A DNA stretch of 64,000 bases from Paracoccaceae bacterium (lineage in GTDB: Bacteria > Pseudomonadota > Alphaproteobacteria > Rhodobacterales > Rhodobacteraceae). The notes under the pieces were generated by a model. That model worked only from the letters and a program-made list of their open reading frames with translations, had not been told where the DNA came from and ran no database searches. The stretch's first letter is position 1; the number at the start of each line of letters is the position of its first letter. Positions 11,599-24,290 of the stretch are shown piece by piece. The position numbers and the translations under genes are program-made. The stretch covers positions 1 to 64,000 of the forward strand of contig JACSRN010000150.1 in assembly GCA_014879735.1 (NCBI GenBank), in the 5' to 3' direction.

Positions 11599-12015
11599 CT
11601 AGCCCTTGCGATGCAGGGCCAGCGCCATGGTCGCAAAGTCATGCGGATCGAAGGGTTTGGGGATCACGCCCGAGATATGCAGCCGCTTGATCATCTCGCT
11701 TTCCTCGTCGACGTTGCGGGCCGTCACCAGAATGACGGTTGCATCGCTGTCGCCCTGCACGTTTCGTACCCAGTCGGCCAGGTCGATCCCGGTCAGCCTT
11801 GGCATCTGCCAGTCGAACAGCAGGATCCCATAGGCACCCTTCTCGAACATCTGCTGGAACTTCTCGCCGTCCGAGTAGGTGGCAATCTCGGTGCCGCCGA
11901 AGATCTTGAAGCAAAGCTCGACCAGTTTCAGCAGGTCGCTGTCGTCGTCCACATAGACGATCGACGGTCTGGCCCTGGGCGCGTTACCGCCGCTGGGCGA
12001 ATCGTTCGATGTCAT
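11599..12015 (-). CDS. Stand-alone response-regulator receiver protein
   Basis: A single REC domain of 138 residues with no output domain. The acidic triad YVDDDSD, phosphoacceptor D68 (LLFDWQMPR), switch Thr (VILVTARN) and conserved K120 (GVIPKPFDP) are all present, so it should be phosphorylatable. The start at 12015 follows GGGAGA and overlaps the HlyD-like gene by 32 bases; an in-frame ATG at 12030 is possible. It is the last gene of the minus-strand operon. A CheY-like switch or phosphate sink in the relay is inferred. Confidence 0.9.
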   Translation of the reverse strand: MTSNDSPSGGNAPRARPSIVYVDDDSDLLKLVELCFKIFGGTEIATYSDGEKFQQMFEKGAYGILLFDWQMPRLTGIDLADWVRNVQGDSDATVILVTARNVDEESEMIKRLHISGVIPKPFDPHDFATMALALHRKG

Positions 12016-13045
12016 CGCTGTCTCCCGCAAGATATTTCTGGCTCAGGCTGTTCACCCGCTCGTACCAGGTGTCGGTGAGCCCGATCCGGACCCCCTGATC
12101 CATGACGAAGCCCGACGGGTCATCCATCATGATGCGCGCCAGCAGGTTGCGTCCGCGCGGCCTGAGCGAGTTGTGGAATTCGATAGGCAAGGCTTCGGAA
12201 TAGGGCAGGATCTCTTCGATCACGCCATTGGTGCTGTTCTGCTGGCCGATGATCCGGACCCGCAGACCCGGCGCGACAGAGAAGAAATACTGCTCGGGCA
12301 GATAGGCTATCACGTAGTGTTCGCCGTGCAGGACCGAGGCGAGACGCTCGCCCGTGGTCGCCACCTCGCCCAGGCTGATCAGATCCTGCCCCATCCTGCC
12401 ATCGCAGGGCGCCCGGACGATGCCGTCGCCGACCAGTGCGCCCAGCCCGGCAAGGTTGTGCTGAAGCAGGGTGGTTTCGTCGTCGCTGGCGAAGATCGTC
12501 CCGGCCCTTGCGGTGAGATCGGCAAGTTCGCGCCGGAGTTCCAGGATCTGGACGGAGAGGGTGTCAACCTCGCGCTGCGTCGACAATCCCCGGCTTTGCA
12601 GGTCTTGCAGGGTCTGCAACTGATGTTCGAGCGCTGCGATCTGCGCACGCACCAGGGGAAGCTGATCGGTGGCGCGGGCGCGATCCTGCCGGCGCTGGTA
12701 CTGGATATCCTTCAGCGAGGCCAACCGTTCGGCCAGCATGCTCATCTGGACGCGGGAATCGATCGAATCGAGCTGGAGCAGCGCATCGCCCTTGCGGACC
12801 GTCTGGCCGGGCCGCACGAAGACCGCAGTGACAAGCACGGTTGCCGGCGCCTCAAGCGTGACCATGGCATGTTTGATCACACCCTCCGACCGCAGGAACA
12901 GACGGTCGCCGAAGAGGTAGTTGCCAAAGCCCAGCACGCAGAGCAGAAGGAGGGTATAGTAGATCCTGCGCCCCAGGGCCCCGCCCGCCTTGCGCGGCGT
13001 GACCGGAAGTGTATCGGCGCGTTGTCTTTGCCGGATGCGTTTCAT
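11984..13045 (-). CDS. HlyD-like membrane fusion subunit of an exopolysaccharide unit
   Basis: A 353-residue inner-membrane protein. It has a basic cytoplasmic N-terminus, one membrane segment (about residues 28-46, IYYTLLLLCVLGFGNYLFG), a biotinyl-lipoyl-like half motif (VFVRPGQTVRKGDALLQLDS), a long coiled-coil hairpin (about residues 105-190) and a second lipoyl-like part (GIVRAPCDGRMGQDLISLGEVATTGE). It overlaps the GT2 synthase by ATGA. Synthase plus HlyD-like partner recalls Alg8/Alg44 of alginate synthesis, but no PilZ domain is seen here. A role in assembling or exporting the polymer across the periplasm is inferred. Confidence 0.85.
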   Translation of the reverse strand: MKRIRQRQRADTLPVTPRKAGGALGRRIYYTLLLLCVLGFGNYLFGDRLFLRSEGVIKHAMVTLEAPATVLVTAVFVRPGQTVRKGDALLQLDSIDSRVQMSMLAERLASLKDIQYQRRQDRARATDQLPLVRAQIAALEHQLQTLQDLQSRGLSTQREVDTLSVQILELRRELADLTARAGTIFASDDETTLLQHNLAGLGALVGDGIVRAPCDGRMGQDLISLGEVATTGERLASVLHGEHYVIAYLPEQYFFSVAPGLRVRIIGQQNSTNGVIEEILPYSEALPIEFHNSLRPRGRNLLARIMMDDPSGFVMDQGVRIGLTDTWYERVNSLSQKYLAGDSDDIERFAQRR

Positions 13046-14322
13046 GACGCCATTGTCCTCTTGGCGCCGGAACTGGCGCGTTTCACCTTGCTCGGGACGA
13101 AATCGTCAAGTTCGGAGGCGCGGAACAGCATCTCTGACGAATAGGCCAGAATGCGCAGCAGCCGGATAAGCAGCATGTTGTAGAGCGTATAGGCCGGGAT
13201 CAGCCGCAACGCCGCACCGCCTTCACCTTCGGCATTTGCCGCCCCGTCGAAGATGATGATGAGCCCGTCGAGCAAGGCATAGGCCATGAGAAACAGTGCC
13301 AGAAGCGCGAACACTTCCTGGCCGTAATACTCCACCATCGCGAGGATGAAGAAGGGCAGGATGATGACCGCCGTCAGGTCGAACAGGAAGAAGTCCAGCC
13401 CGCTGACCAGGTTGCGCATCGTGAAATGCGGCGACCTCGGGTTGAAGACCGCGCCGTGGCGGCGCATGCGCAGGGCGTAGGAATCCCGCTCCCAGCGATA
13501 GCGCTGGCGGATGAGGGTGCCGATCCGGGTGGGAACATCGGTGCGGCAGATGGCGTTGCGCGCAAAGGCGATGCGATAGCCCGCGCGGCGCAGGCGCAGC
13601 GAGAAATCCAGATCCTCGCCGCTGACCGCATCCATGCCCGAAACCCGCTGGATGGCGCTGCGCCGGTAGGCGCCGAAGGCACCGGAGACCAGAGAAAGCT
13701 GGTTGATCATGTCAAGCCCCGACCGCCCGGCGCCGATGCAGAGGCGGTATTCCAGGTTCTGGATCTCGGCCAGGAAGGATGCGCCGGCATTGCGCGCCAG
13801 GATATTGCCGGAAACGCCGGCAACCTCTGGGTCTTCCAGCCGGAAGATGATGTTGCGCATCGCGTGTCGGTCAAAGCTGGTGTCGGAATCGATCGAGACG
13901 ATCACCTCGTTGCGGGCATTCAGGCAGGCCAGGTTGGTTGCCGCCGACCGCCCGCCGCGCAGTTCCAGCCGGTGATAGGCCGCGATCCGCCCCGACGACT
14001 GCAGCGCCTTGAGCTTTGCCGGCATCTCGTCGGTGGAGCCGTCCGATACAACGATGATCTCGGCCGGCGGGAAGGATTGCTGTTCCAGCGACCTGACGCA
14101 ATTGGCGATCCGGTTGCCCTCGTTATGGCCGACCAGGGCTACGGTATAGGGCGGGGGGCGATAGCCCTGCGGCGGGCGCGGTTCCCGATACCAGATCAGC
14201 GCGAAGGCCATCAGCACGAAGCGCGGGAACTCGAAAAGGATCAGCGGCAGGATCAGCCCGGCGACGCCGATCATGCCCTCGCTGCGAAAGAAGGCGGCCA
14301 CCGAGAGGAAATAGCCGTCCAT
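13042..14322 (-). CDS. Processive family-2 glycosyltransferase (exopolysaccharide synthase)
   Basis: A 426-residue membrane GT2 enzyme of the cellulose/PgaC/Alg8 kind. Catalytic signatures in order are VVSDGSTDE (D94), SIDSDTSF (the DxD at 145-147), GEDLDF (E236-D237) and QRYRW (273-277), the Q-x-x-R-W polymer-binding motif. One or two membrane segments precede the catalytic domain and about four follow it. The start at 14322 shares one base with the upstream stop (TGATG); an in-frame ATG 11 codons earlier is less likely. Synthesis of a beta-linked polymer from a nucleotide sugar is likely, but the sugar is unknown. Confidence 0.92.
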   Translation of the reverse strand: MDGYFLSVAAFFRSEGMIGVAGLILPLILFEFPRFVLMAFALIWYREPRPPQGYRPPPYTVALVGHNEGNRIANCVRSLEQQSFPPAEIIVVSDGSTDEMPAKLKALQSSGRIAAYHRLELRGGRSAATNLACLNARNEVIVSIDSDTSFDRHAMRNIIFRLEDPEVAGVSGNILARNAGASFLAEIQNLEYRLCIGAGRSGLDMINQLSLVSGAFGAYRRSAIQRVSGMDAVSGEDLDFSLRLRRAGYRIAFARNAICRTDVPTRIGTLIRQRYRWERDSYALRMRRHGAVFNPRSPHFTMRNLVSGLDFFLFDLTAVIILPFFILAMVEYYGQEVFALLALFLMAYALLDGLIIIFDGAANAEGEGGAALRLIPAYTLYNMLLIRLLRILAYSSEMLFRASELDDFVPSKVKRASSGAKRTMAS

Positions 14323-16040
14323 CAGAAGATATCCCGTGCCGTCAGGATTTCGCATCTGGGTTCAAGATCCACGGCAGATTCCGTCGCGGCCTGTTTCAGC
14401 GCCGCCTCGGCACGGGCGCGCAGGTCGCCGGCATCCGCCTCGTTCGCGAGCAGATAGTCCGATGAACTGCCGCTGGCATGGATGTCGGGGTTGACCAGTT
14501 CGACCGCGCGCCGCAGCAGGTTGCGGCGCGTCCTGTCGACAAATCCGGCGCCGTGGTCGCGCTCCATCTGGCGCAGATTCGGATAGCTGATGACGGCCAG
14601 TCCGAAGGGGGCCTGCTCGCCATGGGTCGAGGCGAAACGGTTCAACTGGGCGATGATCTGGATCGGCAATTCCGAGAAGCGGAAGATGCGCCCAAAGGTC
14701 GACCGGCCCATGCGGCCGGTTTCGATGACGTCCCGGCCGCGCGGCGAGAGGGCGTAGCTCAGGATGTCGCGGGTGTGGATCGTCTCGCCGGTGGTGATCT
14801 GGCCGCAGTCGAGGCAGCGGAACGACACGCCGGGATCCGACATCGAGGCGCCGCAGGCCTTGCAGACCAGAACCACGCCCGGGCGATCATAGTCGACCCC
14901 GAAGCTTGTCAGTTCGCGCCTGCATTTCGGGCACAACAGATCGTCGCCGTGCCGAAAATCGGTCTCCGGTCCCTGATAGGCGCATTTGAAGTGATGGACA
15001 TAGGATTCCTCATGCAGATGCGCCGAGCCGCAGGCGCTGCAGATCTCGCGGACCATGAGCCGGGAACCCCGGCATCCCGGACAGACCTGAAGCCGGTCGA
15101 AGAAGGTTGCCGTGACCAGCCCGTCCTTTTCCAGCCGCGCCGCGGTCTGTTCGACGGCATCGGGATCGGCAAGAAGGGAATAGACCACGGTTTTCAGGTC
15201 GTCCGGGTTGAACCGCGGCTCGATCGCGCCGCCGCTGGCATAGGCGCGCGCCAGGATCCGCTCGTCGATGTCGGCCGGCTCGTTGAAGTCCGGGTGAATC
15301 CGCTCGCGCCGGTTGCGAAATTCGTCGATGATCCGGGTCAGGCGCTCGGCATGCACATCCTGGTTGCGCCCGCCCAGATCGGCGCGTCCGAACTGCCCGC
15401 TGGTCAGATCGACCACCGGGCTGAGATGCAGGGTCGGCAGGCTGAACATCGCCCGCGAAGACGCCGGATCGGGGTTGCGCAGCAGAAGGATGGCGTCGGG
15501 CGGGCCCTCCAGCTTGAGCCGCATCTGGGTCCTCCTCAGCCCCTCGGCATCGAAGTCATTGGGGAAATACAGGATATACCGATCAAGCTCGGCAAACGGC
15601 CGGTTCTCCCCGCTGTCACGGCTTGCATCCCTGACCCCGGGGGAAACGACCCTGTCTGTCGGGCCCGCGCCATCGGCGGCGATGATGGACACCAGCGTGT
15701 CGATGTCGATCGGCTTTGGCAGGACCTGCTCGAACAACTCGATCGTGCGGCCCGCAGCCAGAAATCCCTTGGTGTCCGCGGTCATCGCCAGCAGCCGCGG
15801 GATGCGTTTTCCGACGGCTGCGTCGACGAACCGGCGCACCAGCTCGACGCCGTCCAGCCCGGGAAGGTGATAGTCGATCAGCGCCACGTCGAAAGCCCCC
15901 GACAACAGCTTGTCGAGCGTCTCCGGGCCATCCGTGGCGATCGTCACGCTATGTCCCTGCCGGGTCAGAAAGAGCTTCACAATGTCGGAGATTACCGAAC
16001 TGTCCTCTGCGATCAGGACAGATTTTCCCTTGTCGGTCAT
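14322..16040 (-). CDS. Response regulator: REC, Cys-rich (TackOD1-like) and degenerate GGDEF-like domains
   Basis: A 572-residue regulator. Residues 5-120 are a REC domain with D56 as phosphoacceptor and K109. The middle (about 150-420) ends in an 11-cysteine metal-binding region: five CxxC pairs (320/323, 334/337, 370/373, 393/396, 409/412) plus C353, with HHFKCAYQGPE between them. This arrangement matches my recollection of the TackOD1 output domain, first described in thaumarchaeal regulators. Residues 455-560 look like a GGDEF fold, but the signature position reads SGSSSDY and the metal-binding Asp is missing, so cyclase activity is not expected. There is no DNA-binding domain. It lies 9 bases after the HPt gene and shares one base with the GT2 gene. 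Confidence 0.85.
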   Translation of the reverse strand: MTDKGKSVLIAEDSSVISDIVKLFLTRQGHSVTIATDGPETLDKLLSGAFDVALIDYHLPGLDGVELVRRFVDAAVGKRIPRLLAMTADTKGFLAAGRTIELFEQVLPKPIDIDTLVSIIAADGAGPTDRVVSPGVRDASRDSGENRPFAELDRYILYFPNDFDAEGLRRTQMRLKLEGPPDAILLLRNPDPASSRAMFSLPTLHLSPVVDLTSGQFGRADLGGRNQDVHAERLTRIIDEFRNRRERIHPDFNEPADIDERILARAYASGGAIEPRFNPDDLKTVVYSLLADPDAVEQTAARLEKDGLVTATFFDRLQVCPGCRGSRLMVREICSACGSAHLHEESYVHHFKCAYQGPETDFRHGDDLLCPKCRRELTSFGVDYDRPGVVLVCKACGASMSDPGVSFRCLDCGQITTGETIHTRDILSYALSPRGRDVIETGRMGRSTFGRIFRFSELPIQIIAQLNRFASTHGEQAPFGLAVISYPNLRQMERDHGAGFVDRTRRNLLRRAVELVNPDIHASGSSSDYLLANEADAGDLRARAEAALKQAATESAVDLEPRCEILTARDIF

Positions 16041-16049
16041 GCAAGCACC

Positions 16050-16388
16050 TTATGCGGCAATGTATTTCTGCCAAAGAAGCGAGTCCTGGGGTTTTATGAT
16101 CGACATGGCGGCCCGGAATTCATCAAGCAGTGCAAGGATTTCGGCATTCATGCCGCCGCCATCCCGGACCAGCAGCTTGAAGCTGTCATTCAGGGCAGAG
16201 GCGATACGGAATATCTCCATGAAACCGGCGGTGCCGCTTCCGCCCTTTATCTTGTGTGTGGCCTCACTTAGAAAGGCGATAGACGGATCGGGCCGGTCCG
16301 CCTCTTCGAGGATTGCCTGCGCCTCGCCGACGATCGTCGCGATATGCGAGGTCAGAATGGCCTGGATTTCTGCGGAAAGATTTGACAT
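16050..16388 (-). CDS. HPt (histidine phosphotransfer) protein
   Basis: A small helical protein of 112 residues with the HPt signature SEATHKIKGGSGTAGF, in which H45 is the phosphorylated His. It would carry phosphate between receiver domains in a relay. The start at 16388 gives a typical HPt length; in-frame ATGs at 16415 and 16472 would add 9 or 28 residues. It is the first gene of the minus-strand operon, directly before the two-domain output regulator, which makes that protein or the lone REC its likely partner. Confidence 0.85.
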   Translation of the reverse strand: MSNLSAEIQAILTSHIATIVGEAQAILEEADRPDPSIAFLSEATHKIKGGSGTAGFMEIFRIASALNDSFKLLVRDGGGMNAEILALLDEFRAAMSIIKPQDSLLWQKYIAA

Positions 16389-17312
16389 TGCACTCTGATC
16401 CTGCGGAGGTTGCATCCGGGTGGCGGTCCCGAGCCAAGATGTCATGCGCTTGGTAAATTTTTTATTTCGCATTCCTTGCTGCGATCTATTTGCATATCTA
16501 AGTTTTTATTTATCCATGCCTGCATCAGTTTTGTATCACCAGGATACAGATTTGTTGCAGCAGGCCCGATGCCATGTCGACCGGATGGAAGGTATGATAT
16601 ATTGCACGGCAGAGAATAAGTGCCGACCGGCCAAATCGCTGAAGATTGCAAAGGCTTTTGGCAGGCGACGCCTTTCATGCGGGGGCGATCCTGCAGTGTT
16701 TCGGTATGGGCGCGGGTATGTGGAACCCTTTTCGCAAGCAGAGGGTGGTGGCGTCGAAGGCCCTCGCTGCGATCCAGCCAAGTCATGCACCCGCCTGGCG
16801 GATAACCCGGAGAGGATGCGATCATGGCAGATTATATGCCTGCTTTGGTCCTGTCGTCGTCGATCCCGGCATCCGGTCCGGGGTCGGGCGCCGCCGCGCC
16901 TCGTCGGTGCAGCCGGGCCAGGCGACCGGGCAGGCCGCCGCCACAGGGGAATCAGCGGCGGAATCTGCGGGACCCAACAAAGCCAAAATTTTCGCAACCG
17001 TGAAGGCCCGGACAGATACGCCATTCGGCTGCACAACTTTCAGTTGTTTTTTGTTGCCCGCCCTGGCTGCGCGCCGGCCGGCACGCTTTGGAATTTGTCG
17101 CGGCAAAAGCCGGAGATTTCAACAGGCCGCCAGAGTTTTCGCGCGATACCCGGAACTATTCCGCCGGTTGTGATGGCGGATCTTAATCTTTCTTTTAATT
17201 TCATAAACTAAGATCATTTTAAGTTCACCATATGCCGGGCCGGCAAGTTCAGAGTGAATTTCTTAATTGACGGCCTGTATGGATTGCGGAACTGCCTCGT
17301 TGGAGGGTGAAG
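16389..17312. other. Divergent promoter region of the signalling locus
   Basis: About 920 bases separate the HPt operon from the sugar-binding-protein gene. Two stretches (about 16440-16560 and 17175-17270) are strikingly AT-rich against the local background and are the likely promoter zones. I could not fix convincing -35/-10 pairs. Long frames through the region lack coding character; one 59-codon frame with a good ribosome binding site is listed separately. Confidence 0.5.
16824..17003 (+). CDS. Possible small ORF (59 aa)
   Basis: The ATG lies 8 bases after GGAGAGG, a good ribosome binding site. The peptide starts MADYMPALVLSSSIPASG, turns Arg- and Pro-rich and has no recognisable family. 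It may be a leader or small protein in the promoter region of the sensor pair, or chance. Only the Shine-Dalgarno match supports it. Confidence 0.2.
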   Translation: MADYMPALVLSSSIPASGPGSGAAAPRRCSRARRPGRPPPQGNQRRNLRDPTKPKFSQP

Positions 17313-18521
17313 ATGCGACCTTGGAATTTTCTCTGCGCAGCACTGGGCCTTGCGGGACTGGCGGAGATGGCGCTGGCCGAGGATCTCCGGTTCATGCATT
17401 TCTGGGCTTCCCCCGGAGAATTGCGGGCGGTGGAGGAGATCCGAAAATCCGCCGCGCGTGCCGGCCTGACATTGACCGAGGCGCCGGTGCCGGGCGATTT
17501 CACCGATCTGCGCTCTGCAATGCTGGCAAGCGTGATTTCAAAGACCCCTCCCGATGCAACGCAATGGATGGTGGGCGATGAATTGGAAATCCTGATCGGC
17601 AGCGAGGTCCTCATCGGCGTGACCTCGGATCGGGTGGATTTTCCGACCGTGCTGCTGCCCGAGATTTATGACGCGGTGAAACGTCCGGGCGGGCTGACAA
17701 GTCTGCCTCTGGGCATCCATATCGAGAATTTTGTCGTGTTCAATACCGAGGCTTTCGCAAAGGTTGGCCTGCCGGTGCCGCGAAGCTGGGCAGAGCTTCT
17801 CGATGCCGCCCCCGCGCTTGACCGCGCCGGCATCCAGCCGCTGGTCATGTCGAGCCAGTCCTGGCAGATGCAGAACCTCTTTCCCAATATCCTCAGTTCG
17901 TTGCTGTCGGCCGAGGATTTTCGCGGCTATCTGAACGACACCCTGCCGCCCGAGACGCTGCGCCCGCAGATGGAGGAAACCTTCCGGATCCTTGCCGGGC
18001 TGCGGGCCTATGCGCCGACACCGCTGCCCGACATCGGCCATGTCGCCGGGGCCGAAATGGTGTCGCGCGGCGAGGCTGCGGCCTATGGGCTGGGGGATTT
18101 TCTGGTGCCGGAACTGCTGCCCAGCGCGGCGCTGTTCTGCACCCTTTCGCCCGGTGCGTCGGTCGTCCTCATGGGCGTCGATGGCATGGCCTTCGTGAAC
18201 AGGCATGACGCCGGGAAGGAACGCCTGATCGAGGCATTCGTCTACGATTTCTACATGAATGGCGGCGCAACCGATTATGTCAGGGCCAAGGGCGGCGTCT
18301 CGGTGCTGGCCGCGGACCAAGGAAAAGCGCCGGATGGCAGTTGTGCCAGCCAGTCGCAACGCGGCTGGAATGAAGCGACCGCGCATCTGCTGCTCAGTGG
18401 CGATGCCTGGCAGAATCACCTGCGCATCGTCGGGAAGTTCACTGCCGATTTTGTCGCCGATGGCACGATGCCCCCCGCCCAAGCGGCCGATACGCTGCTG
18501 CGGCTGATGGGCAAGATGTAG
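17313..18521 (+). CDS. Orphan ABC-type sugar-binding periplasmic protein
   Basis: A 402-residue extracellular solute-binding protein of the MalE/UgpB kind. The signal peptide is about residues 1-24, with cleavage after ALA (MRPWNFLCAALGLAGLAEMALA). Family features include LPLGIHIENFVVFNTEAF, VGLPVPRSWAELLDA and SPGASVVLMGVDGMAFV. GGAGGG sits 5 bases before ATG 17313. No permease or ATPase gene is nearby and a histidine kinase starts 10 bases downstream, so it probably presents a sugar to the kinase, as ChvE does to VirA. Transport with distant permeases remains possible. Confidence 0.88.
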   Translation: MRPWNFLCAALGLAGLAEMALAEDLRFMHFWASPGELRAVEEIRKSAARAGLTLTEAPVPGDFTDLRSAMLASVISKTPPDATQWMVGDELEILIGSEVLIGVTSDRVDFPTVLLPEIYDAVKRPGGLTSLPLGIHIENFVVFNTEAFAKVGLPVPRSWAELLDAAPALDRAGIQPLVMSSQSWQMQNLFPNILSSLLSAEDFRGYLNDTLPPETLRPQMEETFRILAGLRAYAPTPLPDIGHVAGAEMVSRGEAAAYGLGDFLVPELLPSAALFCTLSPGASVVLMGVDGMAFVNRHDAGKERLIEAFVYDFYMNGGATDYVRAKGGVSVLAADQGKAPDGSCASQSQRGWNEATAHLLLSGDAWQNHLRIVGKFTADFVADGTMPPAQAADTLLRLMGKM

Positions 18522-18531
18522 CGGGCGCAGG

Positions 18532-20835
18532 ATGATGGCGGAACTTGCCCTGACCGGAGCCTGGCCAAGATCACTGCTGCCGCGATGGCGGAAAATGGAT
18601 CTCGACCGCCGCCTGACGATGACCACCGGCGCGCTGTCGATGTCGATCGCCATCTTCGCCATCTGCGTCCTGACCGTGTTCTCGGTGCGAGCCATCATCG
18701 AGCTGGAGCGGCGCGAAGCGCTGAAGGAGATGGCAACGATCGGCAGCCTGATCGCGGAAGAGGCGCAGCATATCGAGGCGCTGACCCGGTCCTTTGCCGA
18801 TGTTTTCATTCGCCGCGGCGACGCTGAAACCTGGCGCAGCCCCGCCGCCCTTGTCGACCGGATGGCCGAGGACATGCGCACGATGCAGTTCGTGTTCCCC
18901 GGCTTGCGGAATGCACGCCTGATATCGCTGAACCCGGACACCGGGACAAAGATCGGCGGCGAGATTGCGTTCATGTCGCCCGACGGCAGCAGCATATGGC
19001 GTCTGTCGCCCTCGCTGCTGGACACATCCTACAACATGGCCTTCGTGCTTGCGACCGCGCGGGCGGAAAAGGGCGCCGTGATCTTTGACATATTGCGGGT
19101 CCTGGACGATCAGGACGATCAGGACGATCAGGACGGAAAGGCGATTGTGGTCAGTTCGGTCGCGACCATCATCACCTCGCCGACCGGCGAGAATCTTGGC
19201 CTGCTGATGCTGGACATCGACGTGACGGATCCGCTGGCGCGCATCGCGAACAAGCTGTCCGACCAGGAGCAATATGCGATCTGGCCGGTGGATACCACGC
19301 TTGAGGTGCCCGGTATCGTGAGCATGCGGGGACAGCCGCCGCGCAGCGCATCCTGGAGCGAATATTCCGCCGCGATTGCTGCGAATGACAACCTTGACTG
19401 GTTCGAGAGCGTTGTCGGGCGCAGCGACGCCCCTGGCGATGAGTTGTTGCGTCTCACCTACGTGCGCCAGCGCAGCAACCTCGGTTTCCACGCTGCGGCA
19501 CTGCTGTCCCTGACCGTCGTGATCATTCTTCTGTCCATGGGCCTTTCGCTTGTGCTGGCCCGTTTCGTGTCGCGGCCGATCACCGAATTGATCGGCGTCG
19601 CCCGCGATGTCGCAAGTGGCAACAAGAGCATCGAGGACCTGGAAGTTCTGGCGAAATCCTCGGAGGAGAACATCCTTGTCGATGCGATGGAGGAGATGCG
19701 GCGAACCCTGGACGACAGGGGTGCCGTCATCATCCGCATCGCCAAGCGTCTCGACATGGCAACCTCGGCGGCCCGGATCGGCATCTGGGAGCGCGTGACC
19801 GACCGGCAGAAGCCCGAATTCTGGAACGAGGCGCTGGTCAAATCCCTGCTTGGCAACGCATCCCCCGGGGACAGCGCGCCGCAGACCGACAGCCATCTGC
19901 GCAACCATGTCCATCCCGACGATCTTGCCGCCTTTGACCTGATCCTGACCTGGGAGGATGGTCAGGATCCGGCCTTCAGCATCATGCTTCGGCTTTGCAT
20001 GGCGGATGGGAAATACCGGAGCCACCAGATGATCGGCCATCAGTATCAACGCGATACCGGCCCGGTTTCCATCATCGCCGCCCTGATCGATATCGAGGAG
20101 TTCAAGCGTCTGGACCGGATGAAGAACGAGCTTCTGTCGACCGTGGGCCATGAGATGAAGACGCCGCTCACCTCGATCATCGGCGCCATCGGCATCCTGT
20201 CCGCGGTTTCAGGCACCAAGTTCAACGATCAGGAACGGCAACTGATCGAGATGGCGACAAAGAACGGTGCAGCGCTTCGGCGGATCATCGACGACATTCT
20301 TGATCTTTCGCGCGTCGATGCGGGAAAGTTCCGGTTGAATTCGGTCGCCATGGATCTTGGGGTCTGCGTGCGACAGACATTGCAGGAATGCGGCAGCTAT
20401 CTGCCCGAAAAGCGGGTGAGGCTTGTCTGCGACAGCGCCGCGCGGGACTGGCCGATCTGCGCCGATGCCGCACGTCTGGCGCAGGTCCTGCGCAACCTGT
20501 TGTCGAATGCGATCAAGTTTTCGCCCGACGGCGCGGAGGTTCGGGTGACGATCGAAGAGCGCGGGTCGGAGATCCGCGTTTCGGTCCGCGATTTCGGCCC
20601 GGGCGTTCCGCCCGAGGAGGAACGCCGGCTTTTCAAGCGGTTCAGCCAGATCGACGGTTCCGACACGCGCGCCCAGGGCGGCACCGGGCTTGGCCTTGCG
20701 ATCTCGATGGCCATTGTCCATGCCCATGGCGGCACGATGGGCTATGAACGTTCGGATCCGGGCGCGACCTTCCATTTCAGCCTCCCCGATCCCGCCCGGT
20801 CGGACGGCAGACAGGCGGGTGGGGTTTCCAGCTGA
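18532..20835 (+). CDS. Transmembrane sensor histidine kinase
   Basis: A 767-residue kinase. TM1 is at about residues 33-57, a periplasmic sensor region spans about 58-320, and TM2 is at about 321-342, followed by HAMP (RFVSRPITELIGVARDVASG). A PAS-like segment precedes HisKA, where H540 lies in TVGHEMKTPLTSIIGAIG, and the ATPase domain has NAIKFSPDGAEV, FGPGVPPEEE and GGTGLGLAIS. There is no receiver or HPt domain, which fits the separate HPt and REC genes encoded divergently. The sensor region contains a 9-base tandem repeat. The start is uncertain; ATG 18595 would trim 21 residues. Confidence 0.93.
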   Translation: MMAELALTGAWPRSLLPRWRKMDLDRRLTMTTGALSMSIAIFAICVLTVFSVRAIIELERREALKEMATIGSLIAEEAQHIEALTRSFADVFIRRGDAETWRSPAALVDRMAEDMRTMQFVFPGLRNARLISLNPDTGTKIGGEIAFMSPDGSSIWRLSPSLLDTSYNMAFVLATARAEKGAVIFDILRVLDDQDDQDDQDGKAIVVSSVATIITSPTGENLGLLMLDIDVTDPLARIANKLSDQEQYAIWPVDTTLEVPGIVSMRGQPPRSASWSEYSAAIAANDNLDWFESVVGRSDAPGDELLRLTYVRQRSNLGFHAAALLSLTVVIILLSMGLSLVLARFVSRPITELIGVARDVASGNKSIEDLEVLAKSSEENILVDAMEEMRRTLDDRGAVIIRIAKRLDMATSAARIGIWERVTDRQKPEFWNEALVKSLLGNASPGDSAPQTDSHLRNHVHPDDLAAFDLILTWEDGQDPAFSIMLRLCMADGKYRSHQMIGHQYQRDTGPVSIIAALIDIEEFKRLDRMKNELLSTVGHEMKTPLTSIIGAIGILSAVSGTKFNDQERQLIEMATKNGAALRRIIDDILDLSRVDAGKFRLNSVAMDLGVCVRQTLQECGSYLPEKRVRLVCDSAARDWPICADAARLAQVLRNLLSNAIKFSPDGAEVRVTIEERGSEIRVSVRDFGPGVPPEEERRLFKRFSQIDGSDTRAQGGTGLGLAISMAIVHAHGGTMGYERSDPGATFHFSLPDPARSDGRQAGGVSS
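19105..19134 (+). repeat. Tandem 9-base repeat inside the kinase sensor region
   Basis: Three exact copies of GACGATCAG plus a partial fourth encode a DDQ run (about residues 192-201). Because the unit is a multiple of three, copy-number change would lengthen or shorten an acidic loop without shifting the frame. Confidence 0.9.
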
Positions 20836-20994: not shown

Positions 20995-21900
20995 TCATCC
21001 CCAAAGTTCCACGAACTCCCGCCATTCGCCCTTCGACATGCCCGAGGAGTCCTGATCGACCGTTTCGCCTGCAAGACGCCGTTTCAGCAGCGATATCGCC
21101 CGGGACGACAGCGTCACGCCGCCCATGCGGTAGTCTTCGAAGGCGGCGAAGGCCAGGGGAACCCAGTCGCGCACGGTGGCCGCGATCGCCTCGGCGTAGA
21201 TGCGGATCTCGTACTGGGCATGGGCATCGGCGCGCAGCCGCAGGAAATGGAACAGGTTGTGCAGGTCGGTCTTCCAGTACCATTGCGTATAGATGTTCAT
21301 CGGCAGGTTCATCCGCGCCAGTTCGCGGGCAAGGCCCTGCTGGCCCTCTTGCGACAGCATGTCCTCGTAATGGTCATAGGCGGTGGCCGCGTCGCGCTTC
21401 AGCGTTTCCAGCACGCGGGCCGCCTCGGCCCCCTGCAGCACCGCGCCGCGGCCCTGGTTGTTCACCGTCGATTGCGCCGCCAACTGTGCGGGATCGGGGA
21501 TGTAGAACTCCCGGTCGAGGATCGAGTAGCGGGCGGAATATTCGTTCACATTGGCGGTGCGGTGGCGGATCCACTGGCGGGCCACGAAAACCGGCAGCTT
21601 CACATGCAGCTTGACCTCGCACATCTCGAACGGGGTCGAGTGCCAGTGCCGCATCAGATAGCGGATCAGCCCGGCGTCGTTCGATACATGCTTGGTGCCG
21701 GCGCCATAGCTGACGCGGGCGGCCTGCACGATGGCGCTGTCGTCGCCCATATAGTCGACCACCCGGATGAAGCCATGGTCCAGTACCTCATGCGCGCGGT
21801 AGAGATGGGCCTCCATCCCGTCAGAGACTGCGCGCAGCGTCGGGCGCGGGGACTGGCGGGCGGCTTCGATTTCGGCACGCTGGTCGGGGGTAAGCGGCAT
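20995..21900 (-). CDS. thyX: FAD-dependent thymidylate synthase
   Basis: A flavin-dependent thymidylate synthase of 301 residues that makes dTMP from dUMP using methylene-tetrahydrofolate and reduced FAD. The ThyX motif is complete: RHRTANVNEYSARYS, with R112-H-R114 and the conserved Asn, Glu, Ser, Arg and Tyr-Ser. The C-terminal half contains the tetramer-forming helices (TDLHNLFHFLRLR). It is monocistronic; a VOC-family gene diverges upstream. No thyA is seen in the window. Confidence 0.97.
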   Translation of the reverse strand: MPLTPDQRAEIEAARQSPRPTLRAVSDGMEAHLYRAHEVLDHGFIRVVDYMGDDSAIVQAARVSYGAGTKHVSNDAGLIRYLMRHWHSTPFEMCEVKLHVKLPVFVARQWIRHRTANVNEYSARYSILDREFYIPDPAQLAAQSTVNNQGRGAVLQGAEAARVLETLKRDAATAYDHYEDMLSQEGQQGLARELARMNLPMNIYTQWYWKTDLHNLFHFLRLRADAHAQYEIRIYAEAIAATVRDWVPLAFAAFEDYRMGGVTLSSRAISLLKRRLAGETVDQDSSGMSKGEWREFVELWG

Positions 21901-22052
21901 GGGACGGGGCCTTTCGCTGTGAGTCGCCAGGCGGCGGGTCCGCGCAAGTTAGCCGCCCGGGCGCCGGTTTGGAACGCGGCATCGTGCGGCGGGCGGGGCT
22001 GGCGCGCTGCGGTGGCCCCGCTATGATCGGCGCGCAAGACGGGAGGTTTCCG

Positions 22053-22481
22053 ATGACGATCCGCTATCTGCACACCATGCTCCGCGTGCTGGACCTGGAC
22101 AGGTCCATGGCCTTTTACCGCCTTCTGGGGCTGGAGGAGATCCGGCGCTACGACAATGAGCAGGGCCGCTTTTCCCTGATCTTCATGGCGCCGCCCGGCC
22201 AGCCCGATTGCCCGGTGGAACTGACCTGGAACTGGGACGGCGATCCGGGCCTGCCTTCGGACAGCCGGCATTTCGGGCATCTCGCCTATGAGGTCGACGA
22301 TATCCACGCCACCTGTGCGCATCTGATGGCAAACGGCGTGACGATCAACCGGCCGCCGCGCGACGGGCGGATGGCCTTTGTCCGCAGCCCCGACAATGTG
22401 TCGGTGGAACTGTTGCAGAAGGGCGCGGCGCTCCCGCCGGCGGAACCCTGGATCAGCATGGACAACACCGGCCACTGGTAG
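22053..22481 (+). CDS. VOC-family protein, lactoylglutathione-lyase-like
   Basis: A 142-residue protein of the glyoxalase I/VOC fold. RYLHTMLRVLDLDRSMAFYRLLGLEE is typical of glyoxalase I N-termini; HFGHLAYEVDDIHATCAHLMANGV and DNVSVELLQKG follow. His of HTML, Glu of VELTW, His of HLAYEV and Glu of VELLQ are the expected metal ligands. It probably detoxifies methylglyoxal as its glutathione adduct, but VOC specificities vary. GGGAGG precedes ATG 22053; in-frame ATGs upstream have no such site. Confidence 0.85.
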   Translation: MTIRYLHTMLRVLDLDRSMAFYRLLGLEEIRRYDNEQGRFSLIFMAPPGQPDCPVELTWNWDGDPGLPSDSRHFGHLAYEVDDIHATCAHLMANGVTINRPPRDGRMAFVRSPDNVSVELLQKGAALPPAEPWISMDNTGHW

Positions 22482-22495
22482 GCGCCGGCAAGGGC

Positions 22496-23596
22496 CTAGC
22501 CCAGGGACCAGAGCGTCAGGATGTCAGGCCCGAGGGGCCGGGTTTCCCGCAGGGTCAGGCGGGGCGCGTCCTTCAGCGCCGCCAGCCCGAGCGGGCCGAG
22601 GACGGGCCGGCCCTCGGCGCCAAGGGCAAGCCCGGCGGTGTAGAGGGCAAGCTCGTCGGCCAGCCCCCCGCTCAGCAATGCGGCGGCCAGCGTGCCGCCG
22701 CCTTCGCACAGGATGCGTGTCAGCCCCTCGCCTGCCAGTGCACGCAGCCCGGCAGATAGGTTGATCCGGCCCTGCGCCGTGGCAGGGCAGGGAATCAGCC
22801 GGGCGCCCCTGGCCTGCCAGGCCTGGCGGGCGGTGTCCGCCGCCGCTGCGGTATGCAGGATCCAGACCGGCACCTCATGCGCCGTTCGGCCAAGCCGGCT
22901 GTCGGGCCGGTGGGACAGCCGGCTGTCGAGCAGGATGCGCACCGGCTGTCGCGGCGCGCCGAGGTCGCGCACCGTCAGGTCGGGGTCGTCGGCGGTGGCC
23001 GTGCCCGAGCCGACCATCACCGCGTCATGCGCCATCCGCAGGGCATGGACGTGCCGCCGCGCCGCCGGGCCGGTGATCCAGCGGCTTTCGCCCGTAGCGG
23101 TGGCGATGCGGCCGTCGAGGCTGGCCGCAAGCTTCAGCGTCAGGAAGGGCAGGCCCTGCGTCACCCGTTTCAGGAAACCGGCCGTCACCCGGGCGGCCTC
23201 GGGGGCAAGGACGCCCTCGGTCACGTCGATTCCGGCCCGGCGCAGGATGGCATGGCCACGGCCGGCGACGCGGGGGTCGGGGTCGGTCAGCGCGGTGACG
23301 ACACGGGCGATGCCGGCCTCGACCAGCGCCTCGGCGCAGGGCGGCGTCCGGCCATGATGGGCGCAGGGCTCCAGCGTCACATAGGCGGTTGCGCCCCGCG
23401 CGGCACCGCCGGCCTGCGCCAGCGCGATCCGCTCGGCATGCGGCCGCCCCCCCGGGGCGGTGGTGCCGCGGCCAAGGATCACGCCCGCCTTCACGATCAC
23501 GCAGCCGACGGCCGGGTTGGGCCAACAGGCGCCGTTTCCCCGCGCTGCCAGCCGCAGCGCATGGGCCATGTGGCGCGCATCTTCGGCCGCGCTCAC
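22496..23596 (-). CDS. ribD: Riboflavin biosynthesis deaminase/reductase
   Basis: A bifunctional enzyme of 366 residues that deaminates and then reduces the pyrimidine intermediate of riboflavin synthesis. The N-terminal deaminase has zinc ligands in [12 protein letters not shown] and [13 protein letters not shown]. The C-terminal reductase shows [23 protein letters not shown] and [14 protein letters not shown]. It overlaps nrdR by 4 bases (ATGA), a common alphaproteobacterial pairing. The rest of the rib pathway is not adjacent. Confidence 0.96.
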
Positions 23597-24060
23597 TCCT
23601 CGGCCTTCTCCGCGGGCCGCAACTCGCTGACGAAGCGATCGAAATCGTCGGCCGCCTGGAAGTTCTTGTAGACGCTGGCAAAGCGCACATAGGCCACGGT
23701 GTCGATCCGGGCCAGGCTTTCCATCACGATCTCTCCGATCTGCTTGGACGAGATATCGGTTTCGCCCAGGCTCTCCAGCCGCCGCACGATGCCGGAAATC
23801 ATCTGGTCGATGCGTTCGGGGTCGATCGGGCGTTTCTGCATCGCGATGCGGATCGAACGCTCCAGCTTGCCGCGGTCGAAATCCTCGCGTTTTCCACTGG
23901 TCTTGATCACCACCAGGTCGCGCAGCTGCACCCGCTCATAGGTGGTGAAGCGCCCGCCGCAGGCCGGACAGAACCGGCGCCGACGGATGGACACATGGTC
24001 CTCGGCCGGGCGGGAATCCTTCACCTGCGTGTCGATATTGCCGCAGAATGGGCAGCGCAT
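23593..24060 (-). CDS. nrdR: Transcriptional repressor NrdR
   Basis: A 155-residue repressor of ribonucleotide reductase genes that senses ATP/dATP. The zinc ribbon is [17 protein letters not shown] with [16 protein letters not shown], followed by the ATP-cone ([30 protein letters not shown]). The start at 24060 places the first zinc Cys at residue 3, as in the family. It leads an operon with ribD. No nrd gene lies in the window, so its targets are elsewhere. Confidence 0.97.
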
Positions 24061-24290
24061 TGGCTCCCTCCTTGCTTGTTCTTGTTGGCCTGCCTCTATG
24101 TCCGGATGTTTCCCCCGGATCGCCCACAGACTATAGGGCCAGCCGCAGGATGCTGGCCAGCGCGATATGTGCGCCACCGTATTTTGCGTAGCCAGGGTGT
24201 GGCGCGGCGGACTCAGCCGCGGCAGGGCGGTAGGGCCGGGGACAGGACGGCAAAGGCGGGGCGGCGAAGGGCGCGAGACGGGGGCGCGCC

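Follow-up and report, generated by a model that had tools for sequence, protein, structure and literature searches.

A predicted phosphorelay input to an Mxd-type exopolysaccharide synthase in a Paracoccaceae bacterium

Among described polysaccharide systems, the mxdABCD operon of Shewanella oneidensis comes closest to the locus examined here, which spans positions 11,599 to 20,835 of a 64,000-nucleotide stretch of DNA (the window: positions 1 to 64,000, forward strand, of contig JACSRN010000150.1, assembly GCA_014879735.1) from a Paracoccaceae bacterium. In Shewanella, MxdA is reported to be an effector that binds cyclic diguanylate (c-di-GMP) (PMC7666153, PMC11395469) and probably acts by activating the Mxd machinery (PMC7666153). 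It also binds the chemotaxis receiver CheY3 (SO3209), whose gene lies apart from mxdA (SO4180) and whose phosphorylated form is required for solid-surface biofilm (PMC7666153, PMC11395469). The window locus comprises seven genes (Table 1), whose coordinates and domains, as first proposed in a sequence-only reading, agree with gene calls and Pfam. Three of them, encoding a regulator, a membrane glycosyltransferase of family 2 (GT2) and a HlyD-like membrane-fusion subunit, are by homology an MxdA-MxdB-MxdC-type exopolysaccharide synthase; the others encode a histidine phosphotransfer (HPt) protein, a free receiver (REC), a membrane histidine kinase and a solute-binding protein. What is new is the wiring, namely a REC fused to the MxdA-type subunit and an HPt, a kinase and a free REC placed around an Mxd-type synthase. 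We regard it as rather probable that a dedicated multi-step phosphorelay acts on the subunit's own receiver, in which case the locus would encode a post-translational switch of polymer synthesis.

The sequence-only reading had remarked on an unusual output behind the regulator's receiver, which is real, and had overlooked its identity: a zinc-ribbon domain, TackOD1 (PF18551; residues 256-431 of 572, 162.1 bits against a cut-off of 32) followed by a degenerate GGDEF domain (about residues 457-572), and with it an Mxd core. The function of TackOD1 has been called obscure (Galperin et al. 2018, PMC5847659). As far as that account was available, its archaeal TACK regulators share with the window protein both the joining of a REC to TackOD1 and a pattern of 11 cysteines with five CxxC and one HxxC motifs; they differ in that no function is reported for them, that some TackOD1 proteins lie in type IV pilus loci and that no link to a synthase is described. 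The words MxdA, Shewanella and polysaccharide have no occurrence in its main text, and no printed link from TackOD1 to MxdA or to a synthase was found in the open-access papers searched. The connection comes instead from the Shewanella operon, which was located by an exact match to a published mxd promoter primer (PMC3691769), found in a single genome among 117 from one genus and in none of seven from another. The first gene after the primer (mxdA) scores 241 bits to TackOD1 and is followed by genes for a GT2, a HlyD-like protein and a 122-residue protein, an order that fits the published description of mxdA, B, C and D. On this score, MxdA of S. oneidensis counts as a TackOD1 protein (L078:4461-8767, minus strand; L numbers denote individual loci), which ties an orphan domain to a studied biofilm effector and makes of it a predicted synthase switch.

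Pairwise comparison (blastp) extends the likeness to the rest of the core. The window regulator aligns with MxdA at 28% over 209 residues (E = 1e-25) and the window GT2 with MxdB at 29% over 405 residues (E = 1e-46), and a profile started from the window HlyD-like protein detects MxdC at 261 bits. As in mxdABCD, the genes for the TackOD1-GGDEF protein, the membrane GT2 and the HlyD-like subunit follow one another in the same order and overlap. The window departs from that operon in its fused, phosphorylatable REC, its neighbouring HPt, free REC and kinase and its lack of an RxxD motif; moreover, the gene after the HlyD-like gene encodes a REC and not an MxdD-type protein (MxdD, 122 residues, has no Pfam match at E up to 0.1). 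In 39 proteobacterial loci that were fetched and extend at least 0.9 kb past TackOD1, the next gene on the same strand codes for a GT2 in 34 cases, as in the window and in S. oneidensis; a same-strand HlyD-like gene is found no more than 3.5 kb from TackOD1 in 33 of the 39, preceding TackOD1 rather than trailing the GT2 in L062, L066 and L067. The five loci without such a GT2 are L053-L056 and L076; in L076 the TackOD1 gene appears split in two, with the GT2 right behind the second piece. Matches below the family cut-off (L010, L019-L024, L039, L040) were removed before counting, and L048 (same record as L047) and the archaeal L072 were left out; L006, whose contig ends inside the gene, stands outside the GT2, I-site and tree counts and the split L076 outside the I-site count, while the near-copies L047 and L076 are both inside the GT2 and HPt counts. 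Since both the core and the parts of the relay turn up again in other genera, the arrangement is more than chance.

The window GT2 retains its catalytic motifs (SDGS, DSD, GED, QRYRW), and its product would be an exopolysaccharide; its best NCBIfam match, PgaC, reaches 128 bits, far under that family's cut-off of 422. The mixed-linkage beta-glucan system BgsA/BgsB, of which BgsA was weighed by description only, was dropped as closest kin after the MxdABC sequence match. In methanogen REC-GT2 fusions such as MTH_548, too, a receiver is tied to a GT2, there by direct fusion to the glycosyltransferase (PMC5847659). That the window relay is "physically joined" to the synthase, as first worded, holds for gene order and for the REC that shares a chain with TackOD1, and not for the synthase itself. 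Among the relatives, a galE gene (UDP-glucose 4-epimerase) follows the triad on two Rhodobacterales plasmids (L047:10202-11212 and L076:10276-11286), hinting at a galactose-containing polymer there; on the second of these, from Alisedimentitalea scapharcae, TackOD1 is apparently split into two annotated genes (L076:6608-7917), with annotated GT2, HlyD and galE next. In a Breoghania metagenome-assembled genome (MAG), the GT2 is broken into two open frames (L003:11773-13020) by sequencing error or by real decay.

The evidence that the synthase is joined to a phosphorelay, as the sequence-only reading had proposed, lies both in the window's own parts and in what is kept at other loci. The window holds a complete set: a HisKA kinase (H-box GHE), a free REC, an HPt (motif ATHKIKGG) and a terminal REC, each with its phospho-residue intact and both receivers with the full E/D-D, D, T and K set. 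A receiver is fused to TackOD1 in eight loci, the window, L002-L006, L042 and L043, and E-D, D, T and K are kept in all eight. An HPt gene lies within 5 kb of TackOD1 in every one of these (the window and 7/7 relatives, Pfam exceeding its cut-off in all seven), as against none of 31 loci without a fused REC and with more than 7 kb of total flank (Fisher 8e-8, the members being related). Its placement shifts, from upstream on the same strand in the window to divergent upstream in L002, L006 and L042 and to a position after the HlyD-like gene in L003, L004, L005 and L043; a strict HPt motif search overlooked three of these proteins, in L002 (VHKINGSSGS), L006 (VHQISGLAGT) and L004 (THKMVGSGKT, its second HPt). 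Pfam Hpt matches number 1-18 in each of the 25 genomes searched (two in the window's own genome), and among the matches listed for the 24 others (to about E 7e-7) none falls within 20 kb of TackOD1. A kinase together with a free REC is found within 8 kb at 5/5 REC-fused relatives whose flanks are long enough in both directions, L003 (2.8 kb downstream) and the short L006 standing outside this count; at the 31 non-fused loci, a kinase lies within 8 kb at four and a free REC at two.

The proposed order of transfer resembles that of the Spo0 phosphorelay, which runs from a kinase to a free REC, a phosphotransfer protein and a terminal receiver; the window differs in that its intermediate is an HPt protein and its output a synthase regulator and not a transcription factor. 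A shorter circuit is also conceivable. HisKA kinases commonly phosphorylate receivers directly, the window kinase lacks a receiver domain (so the sequence-only reading, and Pfam likewise shows no REC), and the gene for the free REC closes the operon, distant from the kinase gene. The kinase could on these grounds phosphorylate REC-TackOD1 without intermediates, leaving HPt and free REC as a phosphate sink or as parts of another pathway, an arrangement that we consider unlikely given that the HPt is kept at all seven REC-fused relatives despite its shifting position, which exceeds what a bystander would lead one to expect.

Under the favored multi-step relay, whose order we infer, the periplasmic binding protein would, when ligand-bound, alter the membrane kinase; the kinase would phosphorylate the free REC as a Spo0F-like intermediate, and the HPt would pass the phosphate on to the REC fused with TackOD1 and the degenerate GGDEF domain. 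Phosphorylation would then change the contact of these domains with the GT2/HlyD complex, and the changed contact may switch on the making and export of the polymer or, less likely, switch them off. The reported link between MxdA and a receiver supports this scheme, because in the window a receiver forms part of an MxdA-homologous protein. By the same token, the binding of CheY3 to MxdA in Shewanella gains a parallel, since elsewhere a protein of this kind carries a fused receiver. Receiver gating of an exopolysaccharide synthase thereby becomes testable with defined parts.

An output after translation, which the sequence-only reading had argued from the lack of a DNA-binding output domain, is likely: Pfam, at E up to 0.1, reports no DNA-binding family for the seven proteins, and the homologous MxdA is described as an effector and not as a transcription factor (PMC7666153, PMC11395469). 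The published comparison of TackOD1 to a double zinc ribbon and to the PriA helicase (PMC5847659) invites another view, that the domain binds nucleic acid and regulates the operon at the transcriptional or RNA level. The GGDEF-fold C-terminus, the same empty Pfam listing and MxdA's probable role in activating the Mxd machinery speak against it, and we hold it to be very improbable. Zinc ribbons can, as a class, bind nucleic acids.

The C-terminus of the regulator bears on what else might enter the switch. The GGDEF motif is absent from all 40 aligned members, the window included, and a regulatory rather than catalytic role is therefore likely for this domain; judged by its missing GG(D/E)EF, the window regulator is not an active diguanylate cyclase. 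Pfam GGDEF exceeds its cut-off in three of ten relatives scanned (L057, L062, L063), stays below it in L051, L052 and L067, and is not listed for L043, L044 or the window protein; L057 also has a PelD_GGDEF match below cut-off (18.2 bits). A catalytically dead GGDEF domain serves as synthase regulator in PelD, BcsE and others, with other accessory domains and synthases and no known phosphorelay. Structural modeling is congruent with the assignment. A model of residues 145-572 (mean predicted local distance difference test score, pLDDT, 77.8) finds its best matches among GGDEF domains (5euh_A, Z 12.2, root-mean-square deviation 2.4, 115 residues), with weak Foldseek matches (best E 4.7e-3, the SadC GGDEF), and the full-length model (mean pLDDT 71.2) has PleD as its top Foldseek match (E 3.4e-9) at low TM-scores of 0.21/0.26. 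These searches register mainly REC and GGDEF, so that TackOD1 and a possible pseudo-receiver at about residues 150-250, between REC and TackOD1, are barely tested by them. With PleD (REC-REC-GGDEF), the window protein shares the order of REC, adaptor-like region and GGDEF fold; it differs in having TackOD1 ahead of the GGDEF domain and no GGDEF motif.

The c-di-GMP I-site motif RxxD, in turn, occurs in one of seven fusions, as against 27 of the 33 non-fused members, among them MxdA (Fisher 0.0014, the members again being related). It is missing from the window protein and from five of the six fused relatives whose C-terminus is covered, L002 being the sole fused member to keep it. The lineage amounts to a natural experiment, in which a line of c-di-GMP effectors has had a receiver and a phosphorelay added and its I-site mostly lost; the loss set in close to the acquisition of the receiver without coinciding with it. 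Should c-di-GMP still be a real input to TackOD1-GGDEF, as for MxdA, the REC would only modulate it. In favor of such retention are MxdA's reported c-di-GMP binding (PMC7666153, PMC11395469), three GGDEF proteins encoded in the window's own genome, and L002, where a PilZ-kinase lies near a regulator with RxxD. The missing RxxD in the window and most fused relatives and the GGDEF motif gone in all members make this account decidedly improbable, even if another site could serve.

The input side is more variable. Eight nearby kinases scanned at L002, L004, L005, L042 and L043 carry differing sensor heads: MASE1 (L005), HAMP with PAS (L002, L004), 5TM-LYT (L042), CHASE and PAS (L005, L043), HK_sensor_dom_bact (L043) and PilZ (L002). 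The last belongs to a PilZ-histidine kinase beside the REC-TackOD1 synthase locus of a Hyphomicrobiaceae MAG (L002:14007-15227, minus strand), which could feed c-di-GMP into the phosphorelay. Two free or hybrid receivers of L043 deviate from the canonical residues, one with F in place of T (L043_19428) and one without the Lys column (L043_16253). In the window, the binding protein resembles the sugar-binding proteins 5xpj and 5dvf (phmmer E 2e-20, residues 29-273 of 404), and its N-terminus looks signal-peptide-like by eye. The sugar signal proposed from the sequence is on account of this resemblance plausible as a local feature, "sugar" being a matter of homology. It does not hold for the system as a whole, because this binding protein is found at no other REC-fused locus in the DNA covered. 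A plasmid search with the binding protein returned 352 records, all distant (less than 60% identity; 22-29% in the best 15 of the 352). The binding-protein/kinase pair would be a plausible local input. The kinase has two hydrophobic segments (residues 28-59 and 315-348) with 255 residues between them. This periplasmic part has no sequence relative in the PDB (one match, E 2.1), and across 394 genomes of the family its head has no kin besides two weak matches behind the second hydrophobic segment, covering query residues 404-525 and 318-524, the latter starting inside that segment; a search of plasmids with the whole kinase gave at least 5000 records and was uninformative.

Several observations weigh against the proposal of an Mxd-type synthase gated by a dedicated relay. 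The window kinase is paired with the relay by position alone, and L003 shows neither kinase nor free REC in 9.8 kb upstream (2.8 kb downstream covered). The REC-fused loci are kin, forming one GT2 clade (97/98), and their counts are therefore not independent events. Loss of the I-site is not tied to gain of the REC: six of the 33 non-fused members lack RxxD, L044 and L075 among them, and the fused L002 keeps it; the three GGDEF proteins already mentioned keep c-di-GMP input possible. Regarding the core, the direct match between the window HlyD-like protein and MxdC is weak (27% over 95 residues, E = 3e-5, blastp), and the window GT2 sits on a long branch (1.59) despite its intact catalytic motifs. 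TackOD1 also lacks a same-strand adjacent GT2 in L053-L056 (in L053 and L055 a GT2 lies about 2.7 kb off on the opposite strand, the L054 contig ends 1.1 kb on, and none was found in L056) and a GT2 in the haloarchaeal L072. Finally, the REC label needs two changes on the TackOD1 tree, because L044 and L075, which have no REC, sit within the REC group; a single change occurs in only 3% of bootstrap trees. As a separate observation, the haloarchaeal TackOD1 protein is encoded on a plasmid (L072:6977-7960) with nosZ a few genes away.

The two trees place the fusion somewhat differently. The GT2 clade given above consists of the REC-fused members that have a GT2 row, seven in all, and on the TackOD1 tree the REC-fused proteins belong to a supported group (100/98) that also holds the non-REC Phyllobacteriaceae L044 and L075; forcing the seven together there is not rejected (approximately unbiased test, p-AU 0.237). 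Relatives come from Stappiaceae, one Hyphomicrobiaceae MAG and one Palleronia plasmid. A gene order shared across Rhodobacterales, which the sequence-only reading had named as a check, was not found: TackOD1 exceeds its cut-off in none of 12 other same-genus genomes and in 2/394 genomes of the family, 9/385 of the class and 15/398 of the phylum, with the window's own genome counted in each of these last three samples. The module is sporadic. Several relatives are plasmid-borne, which suggests, without proving, that it moved horizontally. A wider proposal, which we advance tentatively and believe to fall somewhat short of probable, is that TackOD1 with a degenerate GGDEF domain is the general regulatory subunit of a widespread GT2/HlyD (Mxd) family, ancestrally switched by c-di-GMP through the I-site, and that one alphaproteobacterial line swapped this input for a receiver and a phosphorelay with interchangeable sensor kinases, gating polymer synthesis directly after translation.

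Table 1. Features of the phosphorelay-synthase locus, in window coordinates
Feature	Position	Strand	Length or start	Evidence
Free receiver (REC)	11599-12015	-	138 aa from ATG at 12015; the frame opens with TTG at 12030 (11599-12030)	Response_reg 63.1 bits
HlyD-like membrane-fusion subunit, MxdC-type	11984-13045	-		Pfam HlyD_3 41.8 bits
Membrane GT2 processive-type glycosyltransferase, MxdB-type	13042-14355	-		PF13632 93.0 bits
REC-TackOD1-degenerate GGDEF regulator, MxdA-type	14322-16040	-	572 aa	REC 50.7, TackOD1 162.1 bits
HPt phosphotransfer protein	16050-16472	-		Pfam Hpt 26.8 bits, cut-off 24.6
Divergent intergenic region, presumed promoters both ways	16473-17306	.	834 bp	Gene order and sequence
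Orphan solute-binding protein	17307-18521	+		SBP_bac_1 36.5 bits
Membrane histidine kinase	18532-20835	+		HisKA, HATPase_c above cut-off; HAMP, PAS_3 below theirs; no REC

The minus-strand operon reads HPt, REC-TackOD1, GT2, HlyD-like subunit and free REC. Overlaps of 1-32 bases had been proposed throughout, which stands for three of the four junctions, depending on the start codons chosen: 32 nucleotides between HlyD-like and free REC genes (ATG at 12015), 4 between GT2 and HlyD-like genes, and 1 (ATG at 14322) or 34 (first ATG) between REC-TackOD1 and GT2 genes. It fails at the HPt/REC-TackOD1 junction, a gap of 9 nucleotides. The binding-protein and kinase genes, 10 nucleotides apart, point away from this operon across the intergenic region, in which no Rfam match reached the gathering score. 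In an empty-site comparison with six same-genus regions (one only 3.3 kb long), thyX was present, with neither the RND (resistance-nodulation-division) gene nor the module beside it. In the window, the module sits at the edge of a block of thyX, a glyoxalase-like gene, ribD and nrdR (20995-24177), and the same block was seen in one of the six same-genus regions (L103), the others covering about 2 kb on that side.

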